A stretch of 64,000 nt of DNA, from NCBI RefSeq assembly GCF_020400825.1, contig NZ_JAINVH010000018.1:62001-126000 (forward strand). The letters run 5' to 3'. A program made the translations under genes and the position numbers. Positions 16,466 through 23,472 of the stretch are shown one piece after another (the stretch's first letter is position 1; every line of letters starts with the position of its first letter). This DNA is from Streptomyces sp. HPF1205. Lineage in GTDB: Bacteria; Actinomycetota; Actinomycetes; Streptomycetales; Streptomycetaceae. The notes beneath the pieces are model-generated. The model ran no database searches and was not told the origin of the DNA. It saw only the letters and a program-made list of their open reading frames with translations.

Positions 16466-16505
16466 CCGCTCCTCTGCCGGGCCCGCGGCTCGTAGAGTTC
16501 CGTGC

Positions 16506-17594
16506 ATGGCCGAACGCGAAGTGCTGCACATCAAGGGCTGGATCCTGACCGGTCCCCAGGACGTCCGCGACGAGATGTGGGTGGTCGGCGGGCGGGTCAC
16601 CTACGAGCGGCCGGCCGCGGAGCCGGCCGGCACCGTCACCGGCTGGGTGCTGCCCGGGCTGGTGGACGCGCACTGCCACATCGGCCTGGACGCGCACGGC
16701 GCGGTGGACGCCCAAACCGCGGAGAAGCAGGCGCTGACCGACCGGGACGCCGGCGCCCTGCTGGCCCGGGACGCCGGCTCGCCCAGCGACACCCGGTGGA
16801 TCGACGAGCGCGAGGACCTGCCGAGGATCATCAGGGCCGGCCGGCACATCGCCCGCACCCGCCGCTACATCCGCAACTACGCCCACGAGATCGAACCCGG
16901 CGACCTGACCGCCTACGTCCGGCGGGAGGCCCGGCGCGGCGACGGCTGGGTCAAGCTGGTCGGCGACTGGATCGACCGCGAGGCCGGCGACCTGGCCCCC
17001 TGCTGGCCGGCCGGCGCCCTCGCCGAGGCCATCGCCGCCGCACACGAGGAGGGCGCCCGCGTCACCGCCCACTGCTTCGCCGAGGACTCCCTGGCCGACC
17101 TGGTGAACGCCGGCATCGACTGCGTCGAGCACGCCACCGGCCTGACCGCCGAGACCATCCCGCTGTTCGCCGAGCACGGCGTCGCCATCGTGCCGACGCT
17201 GGTCAACATCGCCTCCTTCCCCCGGCTCGCCGACGGCGGCCAGGCCAAGTTCCCGCGCTGGGCCGACCACTTGCGCCGCCTGCACGCCCGCCGCTTCGAC
17301 ACCGTCCGCGACGCGTACGACGCCGGCATCCCCGTCTACGCCGGTACGGACGCGGGCGGCGGCCTCGCCCACGGCCTGATCGCCGCCGAGGTCGGGGAGC
17401 TCGTCCGCGCCGGGCTGCCGACCGAGGCCGCGCTGTCCGCCGCCACCTGGGGCGCGCGGACCTGGCTCGGCCGCGAGGGCCTGGCGGAGGGCGCGCCCGC
17501 GGACTTCGTGGTCTACGACGCCGACCCGCGCGAGGACGTCGGCGTGCTGCTCGCGCCCAGGCGGATCGTCCTGCGCGGCGCGATCGTGGCCTGA
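16506..17594 (+). CDS. Amidohydrolase-family metal-dependent hydrolase
   Basis: 362 residues. The amidohydrolase-superfamily metal motif is VDAHCHIGLD (His56, His58). Later ligands are likely in VTAHCF and CVEHATG, and the Asp in YAGTDAGGG; TEAALSAATWGARTWLG is the usual C-terminal helix. It resembles the imidazolonepropionase-like / prolidase-like cyclic-amidohydrolase group, but the substrate is unknown. No signal peptide, so cytosolic. ATG 16506. Monocistronic, between a minisatellite and a structured leader. Confidence 0.85.
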   Translation: MAEREVLHIKGWILTGPQDVRDEMWVVGGRVTYERPAAEPAGTVTGWVLPGLVDAHCHIGLDAHGAVDAQTAEKQALTDRDAGALLARDAGSPSDTRWIDEREDLPRIIRAGRHIARTRRYIRNYAHEIEPGDLTAYVRREARRGDGWVKLVGDWIDREAGDLAPCWPAGALAEAIAAAHEEGARVTAHCFAEDSLADLVNAGIDCVEHATGLTAETIPLFAEHGVAIVPTLVNIASFPRLADGGQAKFPRWADHLRRLHARRFDTVRDAYDAGIPVYAGTDAGGGLAHGLIAAEVGELVRAGLPTEAALSAATWGARTWLGREGLAEGAPADFVVYDADPREDVGVLLAPRRIVLRGAIVA

Positions 17595-17674
17595 CGGCGT
17601 GCCTGACGGCGTGCCGACGACCTCCCGACGACCTCCTGACGACCACGACCTGACGACCAGCGGGACGAGGACTG

Positions 17675-17746
17675 CCCGCAGCTCGGTGAAAGCTGCGGGA
17701 AACCACCCTTATGGGTGAACTGGCGGCGCGTAGCCGTGCGTTCACC
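17675..17746 (+). promoter_or_regulatory. Structured leader or terminator hairpins upstream of the LAxTG gene
   Basis: Hairpin 1: CCCGCAGCT (17675-17683) with its exact complement 17691-17699, loop of 7. Hairpin 2: GGTGAAC (17714-17720) with GTTCACC (17740-17746). Hairpin 1 may terminate the amidohydrolase transcript. The GGGAAACC...GGGTGAAC core faintly recalls actinobacterial ydaO (c-di-AMP) riboswitches, but I cannot fold the full motif, so the function is open. Confidence 0.4.
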
Positions 17747-17843
17747 GTCAGTGCGTAAATATGGCCGGGTCAAGTTCCCGGCGCCGCTGTCCCCTTCAGT
17801 GCCGCGCCCGGGACGCCGTGTCCTTCGTGGGGGTTCCACCACC

Positions 17844-19073
17844 GTGTACCGCACCATCACCTTCCGCCTGCCCGCACGCCGTTCGGCCCTCGCCGCCGGG
17901 GCCGCCGCACTGGCCGCCGCCGCGGGGGCGCTCGCCGTACCCGCGGCGCAGGCGGCGCCGGACGCCGCGTACGGCGGCGGCACGTCGACCGCCGCGGTCC
18001 TGCGGGCCTCGCTGGACGTGTCGCTGCTCGGCGGGACCGCGGACGTGCCCGTGGACACGTCGCTGGACGACGTGCGCGCGCCCGCCGACGCCAGTGAGAC
18101 CGCGCTCACCGTGACCGTGGGCCGCGGGGTGCAGGGCGGGCGCCCGGTGAGCCTGCTGCGGGCGAAGGCCGCCACGGCCGAGGCCACCGCGGACACGCGG
18201 CAGGCGCGGGGCCACGCGGAACTGGCCGACGTTCAGGTCCACGTCCCGGGGCTGCCGCTGCTCGCCCTGGTCAGGGCGGACGTGCTCACCGCCACCGCCA
18301 CCTGCAGGGCCGGCCACCACCCGACCGCGTCCTCGACGCTCGCGGGGGTCACCGTCCTCGGCCGCCGTGTCGCACTCCACGCGGACGGCCCGACCGACGT
18401 CCAGGTCCCGGGCGTCGGCAGGGTCCGGCTCGACCTCACCCGTACCGCCACCACCTCCACCACCGCGGCGGCCACCGCACTCCACCTGGGCGTCCGTCTC
18501 GACCCGGCCCGCCTGGGCGTGGCCAAGGTTTCCGGCGACGTCACCCTGGTCCAGGCCACCTGCCGCACCCCGCGGGCGGGCGGCTCGACGGGCGGCGTGA
18601 CGAACGGATCGACGAGCGGATCGACGAGCGGATCTACGGTGGGCTCCACCGCGGGTTCGACCGCGGGCCCGACCTCGGGCGGCTCCACCTCCGGCTCGGC
18701 GTCCGGCGGTTCGGCCTCGGGCGGCAGCGGCTCGGGCGGCGCCTCCACCAGCGGCGCGTCCGGCGGCGGTTCGTCCACCGGCGCCACGGCGTCCGGCGGG
18801 ACGGGGACGGCGGGCACGGGAACCTCCGGAGCAGGAACCACGGGAGCAGGAACCACCGGAACCGGAAGCACCGGCACGCCGGCCTCCGCCGGCACCACGG
18901 CGACCGGCGGCGACGGTTACGCGACCGGCGGCGACCTGGCCCACACCGGCGCCAGTGGGGCCCTGCCCTACCTCGTACCGGCCGCCGCCGGGCTCATGGC
19001 GGCCGGGGCGGGAGCCATCGCGCTGTCCGGCCGCCGGCGCCGGGCGCGGGCGGCCTCCCGTCCCGAGGCGTGA
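17844..19073 (+). CDS. Secreted LAxTG-anchored surface protein
   Basis: 409 residues from GTG 17844. Signal peptide: basic YRTITFRLPARR, hydrophobic [17 protein letters not shown], and AQA-A cleavage near residue 38. The folded part is about 40-250 (LRASLDVSLLGGTADVPV; SETALTVTVGRG). Then comes a stalk of about 110 residues rich in Gly/Ser/Thr, the sortase signal LAHTG, a C-terminal membrane helix (LPYLVPAAAGLMAAGAGAIAL) and a basic tail. LAxTG is the class E sortase signal of high-GC actinomycetes, so cell-wall anchoring is expected. It resembles the SCO1860-type family as I recall it. No sortase gene is in the window. Confidence 0.85.
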   Translation: MYRTITFRLPARRSALAAGAAALAAAAGALAVPAAQAAPDAAYGGGTSTAAVLRASLDVSLLGGTADVPVDTSLDDVRAPADASETALTVTVGRGVQGGRPVSLLRAKAATAEATADTRQARGHAELADVQVHVPGLPLLALVRADVLTATATCRAGHHPTASSTLAGVTVLGRRVALHADGPTDVQVPGVGRVRLDLTRTATTSTTAAATALHLGVRLDPARLGVAKVSGDVTLVQATCRTPRAGGSTGGVTNGSTSGSTSGSTVGSTAGSTAGPTSGGSTSGSASGGSASGGSGSGGASTSGASGGGSSTGATASGGTGTAGTGTSGAGTTGAGTTGTGSTGTPASAGTTATGGDGYATGGDLAHTGASGALPYLVPAAAGLMAAGAGAIALSGRRRRARAASRPEA

Positions 19074-19144: not shown

Positions 19145-19268
19145 TTACGCTTTCCCTACGCACGGCAACGCATCGTCCGTGCGCAGGGGTTGACGTGCGT
19201 TCGCCGTCCGCGGGGGCGGGGGGACGGACCGGATGAGGCGCCGGGGCGGGCGCAGGGACGGGCGGGGA

Positions 19269-22200
19269 ATGGCTGACGGGCTTTTCGCGGGTCGCTACGA
19301 GCTTGCGGAGCTGCTCGGCTCCGGCGGGATGGCCCGGGTGCAGCGGGCCCGCGACACGCGGATGGGCCGCACCGTCGCCGTCAAGACGCTGCTGCCGGAA
19401 CTGGCCAGCGACCCCGACGCGCGGCGCAGGTTCGCGCGCGAGGCCCAGGCCGCGGGCGCCCTCAACCACCCGGGCATCGTCACCGTCCACGACCAGGACG
19501 AGGTGCGCGACGGCGACAGCGTCATCCCCTACCTGGTGATGGAGTACGTCGAGGGCACCACCCTGGCCGCCCTCGTCCGCGCCCAGGCCCCGCTGGAGCC
19601 CGCGCGGGCGGTCCGCATCACCTGCGACATCCTGGACGCGCTCGCCCACGCGCACAGCCACGGCACCGTGCACCGCGACGTGAAACCCGCCAACGTAATG
19701 ATCACGACCGCGGGCGCGGTCAAGGTCGCCGACTTCGGCATCGCCCGCGTCCTGGACAACGACGCCCGCCTGACCACCACCGGCTCGGCGATCGGCACCC
19801 CCAGCTACATGTCGCCCGAGCAGATCAACGGCGAGGACGTCGACCCGCGCAGCGACGTCTACTCCGTCGGCTGCGTACTGACCGAACTGCTCACCGGCAA
19901 GCCGCCGTTCACCGACGGCAACCCGCTCAACCTCATGTACTGGCACGTCCACACCCCGCCGCCCGCCCCGTCCTCCCGTATCCGGCGGGTGCCCCGGGAA
20001 CTCGACGACCTGGTGCTGGCCGCGCTCGCCAAGGACCCCGCCGACCGGCCGGCCGACGCCGCCGCGTACCGCGACCGGCTGCGCGCCTGGCTCGTCACGG
20101 CCGGCCCGGAGACCCTCGGCGGCCCGGCGGCCGAGGGCCTGCCCCGGCCCGGCTCCGTACCCGGCCAGGCACGGGAGTCCGGCGGTACGCCCCCGCCCGG
20201 CGGGCAGACGGCGGGCGGGCACGACCCGGGCGGTGCCCGGACCTCGGGGGAGCGGCCGGCCGACCCGCGCTTCACCTACGGCGTCGGCGCCAGGCTCCCC
20301 TCCCTGCCCGCCGCCGCGCCGGGCACGCCGCCGCCGTCGGGCCCCTCCGCCGCCCCGGCGCCCGCCGGTCCCGCGACTCCCGCCGCCCCCGGCGCCGTAC
20401 GCGACGCCACCCCGCCTCCGCCGCCCCGGCCCGCCCAGCCGGAGCACCCCGCGTACTCCCGGGCCCCGCAGGTGCCGCTGCCGCCGCCCTACCTGCCGGG
20501 CACCCCGCCGCCTTCCAACGCCGGGACCCCGGCCGTCCCGCCGGCCCGGCGCCGGCGCCGCCGCTGGATCGCGGCGGGCGCGGGCGTGGCCGTCGCCGCC
20601 ACCGCGGTCTCCGTCACCCTCGCCTTCGCCCCGATCGGCGGCCACGGCGGCACGCCGAGCCCCACCCACAGCCCCACCACCGTGCGGAACGCCGCCCTCA
20701 CGCTGCACGGCGGCAAGGAGGGCAGCGGCTACGACGGCGGTCTCGCCGGCGTCGTCCGCCCCTCCACACAGCGCGGCGGCACGCTGCGGCTGGCGTCCGT
20801 GGGCGGCGCCACCAACCTGCTCGACCCGGCCGCCACGTACGACCAGGCGTCGTGGAACGTCCAGCGGCTCTACCTGCGCAAGCTCGTCGACTACGCGCCC
20901 GCCCCCGGCGACAAGGGCCGCCGCCTCGTCCCGGACCTGGCCACCGACACCGGCGAGGTCAGCTCCGACGGCCTGACCTGGACCTTCCACCTCAAGCCGG
21001 GGCTGCGGTTCGACAACGGCGAGGCCGTCACCTCCGAGGACGTCAAGTACGGCATCGAGCGCACCTTCGACCGCACCGTGTTCCCCGGCGGCCCCTCGCA
21101 CTTCGTGGACCTGCTCGACCAGGGCCAGCACTACCCCGGTCCGTACAAGGACAGCGACCCGAACAAGCTCGGGCTGCGCAGCGTCCGGACGCCCGACGCC
21201 ACCACCATCGAGTTCACGCTCGCCAAGCCCTTCGCCGACTTCCGCTACGTGCTGGCGCTGTCCATCGGCGCGCCCGTCCCGCAGTCCGCCGACGGCGACG
21301 GCGGCAAGGACTTCGAGAAGCACCCCGTCGGCAGCGGCCCGTACCGGGTCAGCAGCTACACCCCCGGCAAGTCCCTGGTGATGGTGCGCAACCCGTACTG
21401 GAAGCAGGCCACCGACACCGTCCACTCGGCGCTGCCGGACACCATCCGGCTCACCTACTACGACAGCCAGGACGAGGTGGAGAACGCCCTGCTGGGCGGC
21501 AGCGCCGACCTGGACATCCAGGGCTCCGCGCTGAGCGACGCCACGCAGACCAGGATCCTCACCGACCCGTCGCTCAAGGCCGACACCGACCTGGTCTTCG
21601 GCGGCACCACGCGCTACCTGAGCCTGCAGACCTACGAGAAGCCCTTCGACAGGTACCAGTGCCGGTGGGCCGTGGAGTACGCGATCGACCGCGCCGACGT
21701 CCTCAAGGCGCTCGGCGGGCAGTACGCAGGCGACGTCGCCACCACCATCCTGCCCCCGACCACCGACGGCTACGACCCGACCTTCACCCCGTTCAACACC
21801 TCGGTCGGCCTGACCTACCCCGACGAGGCCAAGAAGAACCTGGCCAAGTGCGGGCAGCCGAACGGCTTCACCGTCACCCTGGCCGGGCCGAGCGGCGTGA
21901 CCAGGATCGAGCGGGCGATGGAGTCGATCCAGCAGTCCCTGGCCAAGGTCGGCATCACCGTCAAGATCCAGGCCGTGGACCCCAGCAGTTTCTACTCCGC
22001 CCTGCTGTCGCCCACCGCGCTGAAGGCCAAGCACTGGGGCATGGTGCTCACCGGCTGGGCAGCCGACTGGCCGACCGGCGGCGGCTTCCTGCGCACCCTC
22101 GTCGAACCCGGCAGCGAGAACAACTACTCCGGCCTGGACGACAGCCGGATCAACAGCGAGGTGGACACCGCCGACTCCGAGACGGACCCGGCCAAGGCCG

Positions 22201-22364
22201 CCGCCGACTGGCAGGACATCGACAAGCTGGTGATGGGCGAGTCCACCATGGTGCCGCTGGTCTACCTCCGCTACCTCGTCTACCGCGGCCCGCACCTGAC
22301 CAACGTCTACGAGCACCAGGTGCTGGGCGGCGTCGACCTCACGGCGCTCGGCGTCGCCTCGTAG
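19269..22364 (+). CDS. Transmembrane Ser/Thr protein kinase fused to a family-5 solute-binding protein
   Basis: 1031 residues in one uninterrupted frame. Kinase domain about 9-275: Gly loop LLGSGGMA, ATP lysine K39, catalytic HRDVKPAN (Asp137), DFG 155-157, GTPSYMSPEQ; all catalytic residues are present. A Pro-rich linker (about 285-430) leads to an Arg cluster and one membrane segment (about 434-455). The outside domain (about 500-1031) is an SBP_bac_5 peptide/nickel-binding protein: GGTLRLASVGGATNLLDPA, LTWTFHLKPGLRFDNGE, GSGPYRV. It has no lipobox of its own and is tethered by the helix. A ligand-sensing receptor kinase is the natural reading. ATG 19269 gives the standard N-terminus; 19233 is an alternative. 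Confidence 0.9.
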   Translation: MADGLFAGRYELAELLGSGGMARVQRARDTRMGRTVAVKTLLPELASDPDARRRFAREAQAAGALNHPGIVTVHDQDEVRDGDSVIPYLVMEYVEGTTLAALVRAQAPLEPARAVRITCDILDALAHAHSHGTVHRDVKPANVMITTAGAVKVADFGIARVLDNDARLTTTGSAIGTPSYMSPEQINGEDVDPRSDVYSVGCVLTELLTGKPPFTDGNPLNLMYWHVHTPPPAPSSRIRRVPRELDDLVLAALAKDPADRPADAAAYRDRLRAWLVTAGPETLGGPAAEGLPRPGSVPGQARESGGTPPPGGQTAGGHDPGGARTSGERPADPRFTYGVGARLPSLPAAAPGTPPPSGPSAAPAPAGPATPAAPGAVRDATPPPPPRPAQPEHPAYSRAPQVPLPPPYLPGTPPPSNAGTPAVPPARRRRRRWIAAGAGVAVAATAVSVTLAFAPIGGHGGTPSPTHSPTTVRNAALTLHGGKEGSGYDGGLAGVVRPSTQRGGTLRLASVGGATNLLDPAATYDQASWNVQRLYLRKLVDYAPAPGDKGRRLVPDLATDTGEVSSDGLTWTFHLKPGLRFDNGEAVTSEDVKYGIERTFDRTVFPGGPSHFVDLLDQGQHYPGPYKDSDPNKLGLRSVRTPDATTIEFTLAKPFADFRYVLALSIGAPVPQSADGDGGKDFEKHPVGSGPYRVSSYTPGKSLVMVRNPYWKQATDTVHSALPDTIRLTYYDSQDEVENALLGGSADLDIQGSALSDATQTRILTDPSLKADTDLVFGGTTRYLSLQTYEKPFDRYQCRWAVEYAIDRADVLKALGGQYAGDVATTILPPTTDGYDPTFTPFNTSVGLTYPDEAKKNLAKCGQPNGFTVTLAGPSGVTRIERAMESIQQSLAKVGITVKIQAVDPSSFYSALLSPTALKAKHWGMVLTGWAADWPTGGGFLRTLVEPGSENNYSGLDDSRINSEVDTADSETDPAKAAADWQDIDKLVMGESTMVPLVYLRYLVYRGPHLTNVYEHQVLGGVDLTALGVAS

Positions 22365-22416: not shown

Positions 22417-23472
22417 TCAGTGGTCCGCGGTCGCCGTCGCCAGCGCGTTGACGAAGCCGTCGGTGGTACGGCGGTCCCGGACGGCGATCCGCAGCCATTC
22501 GGGGCCGAGCCCGGGGAAGGTGTCGGCGCGCCGGACGGCGTAACCGAGCGCCCGCAGCGTGCCCCGCACCCTCGCCGCGTCCGGCAGCCGCAGCAGGAGG
22601 AACGGCGCCGCCGGCGGGTCGCCCGCGACCTCCACGCCGGGCAGGTCGCGCAGGCGGTCCACCAGGTAGGCGCGGTCGGCGGTGAACACGCGGGCCGCCT
22701 CCGCCGCTTCGGCCAGCGCCCGCGGCTCCATGCACGCGGCCGCCGCCGCCAACGCCGGCGCGGACACCGCCCACAGCGGCTGCGCCCGCCGCAGGGCGGC
22801 GACCGGTTCGGGGCCGGCCAGCGCGTAGCCGATCCGCAGGCCCGCGAGTCCCCAGGTCTTGGTCAGGCTGCGCAGCACCACCAGCCCCGGCACGTCCCGG
22901 TCGGCCGCCAGCGACTCCCGTTCGCCGGGCACCGCGTCCATGAACGCCTCGTCGACCACCAGCGTGCGGCCCGGCCGGGCCAACCGCCGTACCAGCGCGG
23001 CGGGATGGAGGACCGACGTCGGGTTCGTCGGGTTGCCGACCACCACCAGGTCGGCGTCGCGCGGCACCGCGGCGGGGTCCAGGCGGAAGCCGTCCGCGGC
23101 CCGCAGCACCACCCGTTCCACCTCGTGCCCGGCGTCGCGCAGCGCCGACTCGGGCTCGGTGAACTGCGGGTGCACCACCACGGCCCGGCGCGGCCGCAGC
23201 GCCCGAGCCAGCAGGACGAACGCCTCGGCCGCGCCCGCCGTCAGCAACACCTCCTCACGCGGCCTGCCGTGCCTGGCCGCGACCGCGGCGAGCGCGGCCC
23301 GGCCGTCCGGATACGCGGCCAGCGCGGTCAGCGACGCGGCGATGCGCTCGCGCAGCCACGGCGGCGGCGTGCCCGCGCGGACGTTGACGGCCAGGTCGAC
23401 CAGGCCGTCGCCGACCTCCGCGTCGCCGTGGAAGCGCAGGTCGTACCGGCCGGCGTCAGTGGGTGTGCGCAT
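22417..23472 (-). CDS. cobC: Threonine-phosphate decarboxylase-like aminotransferase CobC
   Basis: 351-residue class I/II PLP enzyme. It has the PLP lysine in LRSLTKTWGLAGLRIGYAL, the VVGNPTNPTSVLH substrate/cofactor loop and VVDEAFMD. The histidinol-phosphate-aminotransferase-like sequence combined with cob-operon position points to CobC, which makes (R)-1-amino-2-propanol phosphate for the nucleotide-loop linker. Its start overlaps the end of cbiX by 17 bases, the largest overlap in the operon. Last gene of the operon, followed by a strong hairpin. Confidence 0.88.
   Translation of the reverse strand: MRTPTDAGRYDLRFHGDAEVGDGLVDLAVNVRAGTPPPWLRERIAASLTALAAYPDGRAALAAVAARHGRPREEVLLTAGAAEAFVLLARALRPRRAVVVHPQFTEPESALRDAGHEVERVVLRAADGFRLDPAAVPRDADLVVVGNPTNPTSVLHPAALVRRLARPGRTLVVDEAFMDAVPGERESLAADRDVPGLVVLRSLTKTWGLAGLRIGYALAGPEPVAALRRAQPLWAVSAPALAAAAACMEPRALAEAAEAARVFTADRAYLVDRLRDLPGVEVAGDPPAAPFLLLRLPDAARVRGTLRALGYAVRRADTFPGLGPEWLRIAVRDRRTTDGFVNALATATADH

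Follow-up and report, generated by a model that had tools for sequence, protein, structure and literature searches.

The window analysed here, 64,000 nucleotides of the soil actinomycete Streptomyces sp. HPF1205 (contig NZ_JAINVH010000018.1, positions 62,001 to 126,000), holds a gene in which a Ser/Thr kinase domain is followed by a family-5 solute-binding domain (SBP). This raises the question of whether the two halves form one protein and, if they do, what such a protein would sense. To our knowledge, the activators of most bacterial Ser/Thr kinases are not known. Since this sensor is a binding domain that is well understood and has a close homologue of solved structure, its ligand is directly searchable.

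Architecture and integrity of the gene

The gene (19269..22364, forward strand, as are all features within it) translates into 1031 amino acids with zero internal stops, so that one protein joins a kinase, via a Pro-rich linker and a single predicted membrane helix, to a family-5 solute-binding domain that is complete. The Hanks-type kinase domain covers residues 10-262 (19296..20054; Pfam PF00069, E 6.9e-52) and has intact motifs that are conserved in homologues, namely the G-loop from Gly17, the VAIK Lys39, the HRD Asp137 and the DFG Asp155. Across 26 homologues, Asp137 and Asp155 are invariant; Lys39 shows gaps but zero substitutions, several of these loci being cut at the upstream end. A Pro/Ala-rich linker, predicted to be cytoplasmic (residues 273-426; 20085..20546), leads to an Arg cluster and the single predicted membrane helix (residues 427-455; 20547..20633), which was read from the sequence as a hydrophobic stretch at residues about 433-454, between the kinase and the SBP. 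The predicted extracytoplasmic solute-binding domain (residues 496-1031; 20754..22361) is assigned from Pfam PF00496, homology to OppA2 and a fold match. Its SBP_bac_5 match spans residues 553-949 and profile positions 2-365 of 368 (E 3.6e-73), with a score of 247.2 bits vs a gathering score of 32.4, and both the Pkinase and the SBP_bac_5 matches lie far above the Pfam cut-off.

An earlier sequence-only reading had described this layout as a receptor-like kinase in a single frame, and that description holds, as the order of kinase, membrane helix and SBP was found again in homologues. A frameshift or start site splitting the halves was looked for and none was seen. The GC content at codon position 3 is 0.93-1.00 in each 100-codon window, linker included, which argues that there is no hidden frameshift and that the reading frame is one piece. 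The start Met at 19269 is common to homologues ("GMADGLFA"); an alternative in-frame ATG at 19233 would lengthen the protein by 12 amino acids. A frameshift or artificial fusion was rejected on the basis of this uniform third-position GC and of the same frame being present in homologous genomes.

The only cysteines of the protein are at positions 119, 202, 798 and 861, and there is no lipobox Cys. Cys798 (codon 21660-21662) and Cys861 (codon 21849-21851) are both present in 39/39 fused and 80/81 solo homologues, and both are absent in the remaining solo one. This co-occurrence is compatible with a predicted disulfide and an extracytoplasmic location and, together with the helix and the Arg cluster, suggests that the SBP is exposed at the cell surface.

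Conservation in Actinacidiphila and relatives

The host genome was placed in the genus Actinacidiphila, and 35 genomes of this genus were compared. An SBP of the same clade as that of the window protein occurs in 28 of them at an identity of at least 49%; the kinase is in the same open frame in 25 of these carriers, two loci run off the end of a contig and one is frameshifted. In this last locus (L187, genome G023, reverse strand), the kinase and the SBP lie in different frames, reflecting either a frameshift or an assembly error in one Actinacidiphila genome. The gene is absent from 7/35 genomes, so the lineage can do without it. The kinase, helix and SBP also occur in two genomes of a second genus in the family, one of them Wenjunlia tyrosinilytica, and the whole order thus recurs in 25 Actinacidiphila genomes and in two of the neighbouring genus. 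Mean identity to the window protein over 26 homologues is 76% for the kinase, 58% for the SBP and 33% for the poorly conserved linker; judged by these values, one polypeptide holds two constrained domains, the kinase and the SBP, joined by a drifting linker.

These data also bear on the alternative that the chain is processed, with the SBP released outside as a soluble binding protein and the kinase left separate. Although the one genome with the halves in two frames would suit separate products, the frame is kept whole in 25 genomes of the genus, a lipobox Cys is missing from the protein, and the helix has a single AxA-like site, which is directly followed by a Pro. We consider such processing very improbable.

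Genomic neighbourhood and the metal-ligand proposal

The upstream neighbour (17715..19073, forward strand; start codon uncertain) encodes a predicted secreted surface protein, rich in Ser, Gly and Thr, with a sortase-E-like sorting signal made up of LAHTG, a hydrophobic stretch and an Arg-rich tail, and it is a conserved neighbour of the end of the cob cluster. A further frame at 16502-17653 was set aside as a probable wrong frame, with no match in Pfam. Downstream, the cob-cluster class I/II aminotransferase (22417..23472, reverse strand; Pfam PF00155) converges on the kinase gene, and matches to CbiX, CbiC, CobO and CobN follow on the same opposite strand, in agreement with the convergence noted previously. 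The order of surface protein, SBP kinase and cob aminotransferase is kept in named Actinacidiphila and Wenjunlia.

From this arrangement, the earlier reading had raised the idea of a metal-related ligand, and the corresponding alternative is a receptor that, through its SBP, detects a metal chelate or a ligand related to cobalamin and controls the cob cluster beside it. In the genus, the gene does adjoin a corrin cluster of the cobalt type, and NikA is a member of family 5. However, in Actinacidiphila genomes that do not carry the gene (G002, G013, G034, G014 and G010), the aminotransferase and the LAHTG gene adjoin each other, convergent and within about 1 kb, and the same empty site is found in other Streptomycetaceae genomes (G091, G102, G097 and G126). 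Neither a kinase nor an SBP lies between the two genes at these empty sites. The SBP-kinase gene therefore occupies an insertion site, or was lost there in those genomes, and a cob or metal link as the cause of the gene location is rejected on this comparison. Given the empty site and the convergent orientation, in which the gene is not co-transcribed with cob, its position gives a metal ligand no support. Fused genes elsewhere are not near cob or LAHTG neighbours, and NikA-type entries match the SBP at only about 3e-17, compared to 2e-154 for OppA2. A metal-sensing role in cob regulation is consequently very unlikely.

The absence of a nearby permease partner was borne out on a larger scale, as no BPD_transp_1 permease match was found on the whole 150,586-base contig of the fused gene. 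With no permease partner alongside it, the fused gene does not qualify as the SBP of an ABC oligopeptide importer. In genome G000, two adjoining SBP_bac_5 genes (contig C122:161179-163897) likewise lie on a contig without a BPD_transp_1 match.

Binding pocket and ligand class

OppA2 is the closest solved protein (2wok, E 2e-154), followed by 8upi (9e-68). In order to examine the fold, an AlphaFold model was generated for the SBP domain alone (17 sequences; mean pLDDT 78.8, pTM 0.72), and its best fold matches are the OppA2 arginine and bradykinin complexes (TM 0.84, Foldseek 3.8e-54), in keeping with the complete binding fold that had been claimed for the C-terminal part. The pLDDT of the model is below 50 at model residues 437-446, a segment that includes the pocket Asp (438).

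Alignment to OppA2 and HbpA places Asp933 (22065..22067), within WAADWP, at the position of the OppA/DppA ligand-amine Asp. We take the Asp of this WxxDxP motif to hold the amino end of the peptide in OppA and DppA. Asp933 is invariant in 30/30 members of the window-protein clade and in 81/81 solo homologues, and two Frankiaceae-group fusions have Gly at this position. An invariant ligand-amine Asp, with OppA2 as the closest solved protein, points to a peptide or an amino acid as the likely ligand class. Of the two ligand types suggested earlier, the oligopeptide is thus retained, and the metal chelate is not, since the nickel proteins are weak relatives.

The SBP could instead be a docking or dimerisation module that takes no free ligand, for example one that senses the loading of an oligopeptide permease. 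A changed constraint is suggested by the long stem branch of the fused SBP clade (0.46), and OppA2 itself comes from a biosynthetic cluster, both of which would agree with such a role. The amine-binding Asp and its Trp and Pro neighbours are still invariant, though, as expected if ligand is still bound, and we regard a ligand-free module as unlikely.

Proposed mechanism and relation to known systems

The reading that we favour, and hold to be probable, is a single-pass receptor kinase with an external oligopeptide-binding domain, in which binding of a peptide or amino acid drives trans-autophosphorylation. An OppA2/OppA-type binding domain has been recruited from an ABC-transporter lipoprotein and would lie outside the membrane, where both SBP lobes would close on a small peptide or on one amino acid, for instance arginine. 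Lobe closure would alter the spacing or dimerisation of the receptors, and the altered association would change how the PknB-like kinase domains in the cytoplasm autophosphorylate in trans and, through this, the phosphorylation of downstream targets. As one helix and a long flexible linker form a weak lever for lobe closure, dimerisation would be required. The domain content and order, the intact catalytic and ligand-amine residues, the conservation, the recruitment history and the absence of a permease are established by the comparisons reported here; from these we infer the ligand class and ligand-driven kinase activation. Overall, the protein very probably signals the presence of a small peptide to the cell.

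A binding domain on a bacterial kinase had been put forward as an unusual sensor, yet there is precedent, as kinase and SBP domains in single polypeptides have already been reported for MSMEG_1200 and about 260 more proteins in InterPro (PMC6069109). StpK7/MSMEG_1200 of mycobacteria (NCBIfam NF052427) shares with the window protein a Ser/Thr kinase and a solute-binding domain in one polypeptide, but its sensor is of the SBP_bac_3 (amino-acid) type rather than family 5 and its total length is 600 amino acids, as seen on a homologue above the family cut-off. The window protein reaches 212.6 bits against NF052427, over the kinase part only, with a cut-off of 900, and lies outside that family; it belongs to the broad class of StpK7-like SBP receptor kinases in that a kinase and an SBP share one frame with a predicted helix between them. 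GlnH-GlnX-PknG, in which an extracellular SBP is coupled to a Ser/Thr kinase in trans (PMC6069109), is a documented precedent that, by analogy, supports the receptor reading, since the ligand state of an extracellular SBP is coupled to a kinase there, as is proposed here. Unlike the window protein, that system consists of three separate proteins, GlnH binds Asp, Glu and Asn, and PknG is not a membrane receptor (PMC6069109). OppA2 of the clavulanic acid cluster (PDB 2wok, 2wol, 2wop) is, along the entire SBP, the closest homologue of solved structure, but it is a stand-alone protein with no kinase and, in the alignment, has Val and Ala at the positions of the two conserved Cys. The PASTA kinases PknB/Stk1 (NF033483) share the kinase domain and single-pass layout, and the match of 369 bits over residues 5-276 falls below the equivalog cut-off of 450; Pfam detects no PASTA repeats in the window protein. 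No published family-5 SBP kinase was found in the open-access literature searched, although papers beyond it may exist. To the extent that this could be checked, what is new is the SBP kinase of family 5, its genus-wide conservation, its repeated independent origins, which involve at least three kinase lineages, and one caspase-SBP fusion.

Origins of the fusion and related fusions

Solo homologues carry the same SBP after a lipoprotein signal peptide (e.g. LSACGGG...FNAALTTV). The fusion has the kinase, linker and helix in place of this signal peptide, and the stretch just before the SBP domain is still recognisable. A solo paralogue in the same genome (contig C155) is 42% identical and resides in an oligopeptide ABC operon with two BPD_transp_1 permease genes and two ATPase genes with an oligo_HPY tail. 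The fused SBPs of Actinacidiphila group with those of the neighbouring genus in one clade (100, starred; 30 rows), and the kinases of the same fusions likewise group together in one clade (99, starred).

Further proteins with a kinase and SBP_bac_5 were found in Kitasatospora phosalacinea, Streptomyces roseolus, S. filamentosus, Streptomyces sp. A108 and a group (f18) that falls with Frankiaceae in the tree. When the fused label (kinase or caspase) is mapped on a tree of 120 SBPs, 6 changes are required, every one of them forced by a starred branch; on the kinase tree, the fused kinases require 5 changes, of which starred branches force at least 3, corresponding to at least three lineages. Both trees are quick and have some long branches, making the exact count of origins unsure. 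More than one origin of family-5 SBP kinases is well supported by these tree placements, and a single origin is not favoured, as fused SBPs fall in several places and the kinases in at least three lineages.

A protein of Streptomyces sp. NBS 14/10 (L109:8909-11617) joins Peptidase_C14 (caspase-like), a Pro linker, a membrane helix and SBP_bac_5 in one frame and, judged from its domain order, is the same receptor layout with a different effector. It is possible, and we propose it tentatively, that Actinomycetes reuse the OppA2-type domain as an outside sensor, wired on several independent occasions to kinases of several lineages and to a caspase-like protease, and that it reads extracellular signalling peptides rather than nutrients. 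If it has been fused repeatedly, with a caspase-like domain as well as with different kinases, this sensor would be a general peptide-sensing module in Actinomycetes.

In Streptomyces sp. t39, a gene at L098:9854-11611 encodes an SBP and a membrane helix with no kinase motif nearby, and its SBP is sister to the fused S. roseolus and S. filamentosus proteins; it may perhaps be a fusion that lost its kinase. Finally, one genome (G311, contig C165) carries two kinase-SBP_bac_5 genes (L169 and L174, at 8128 and 15303) about 7 kb apart.
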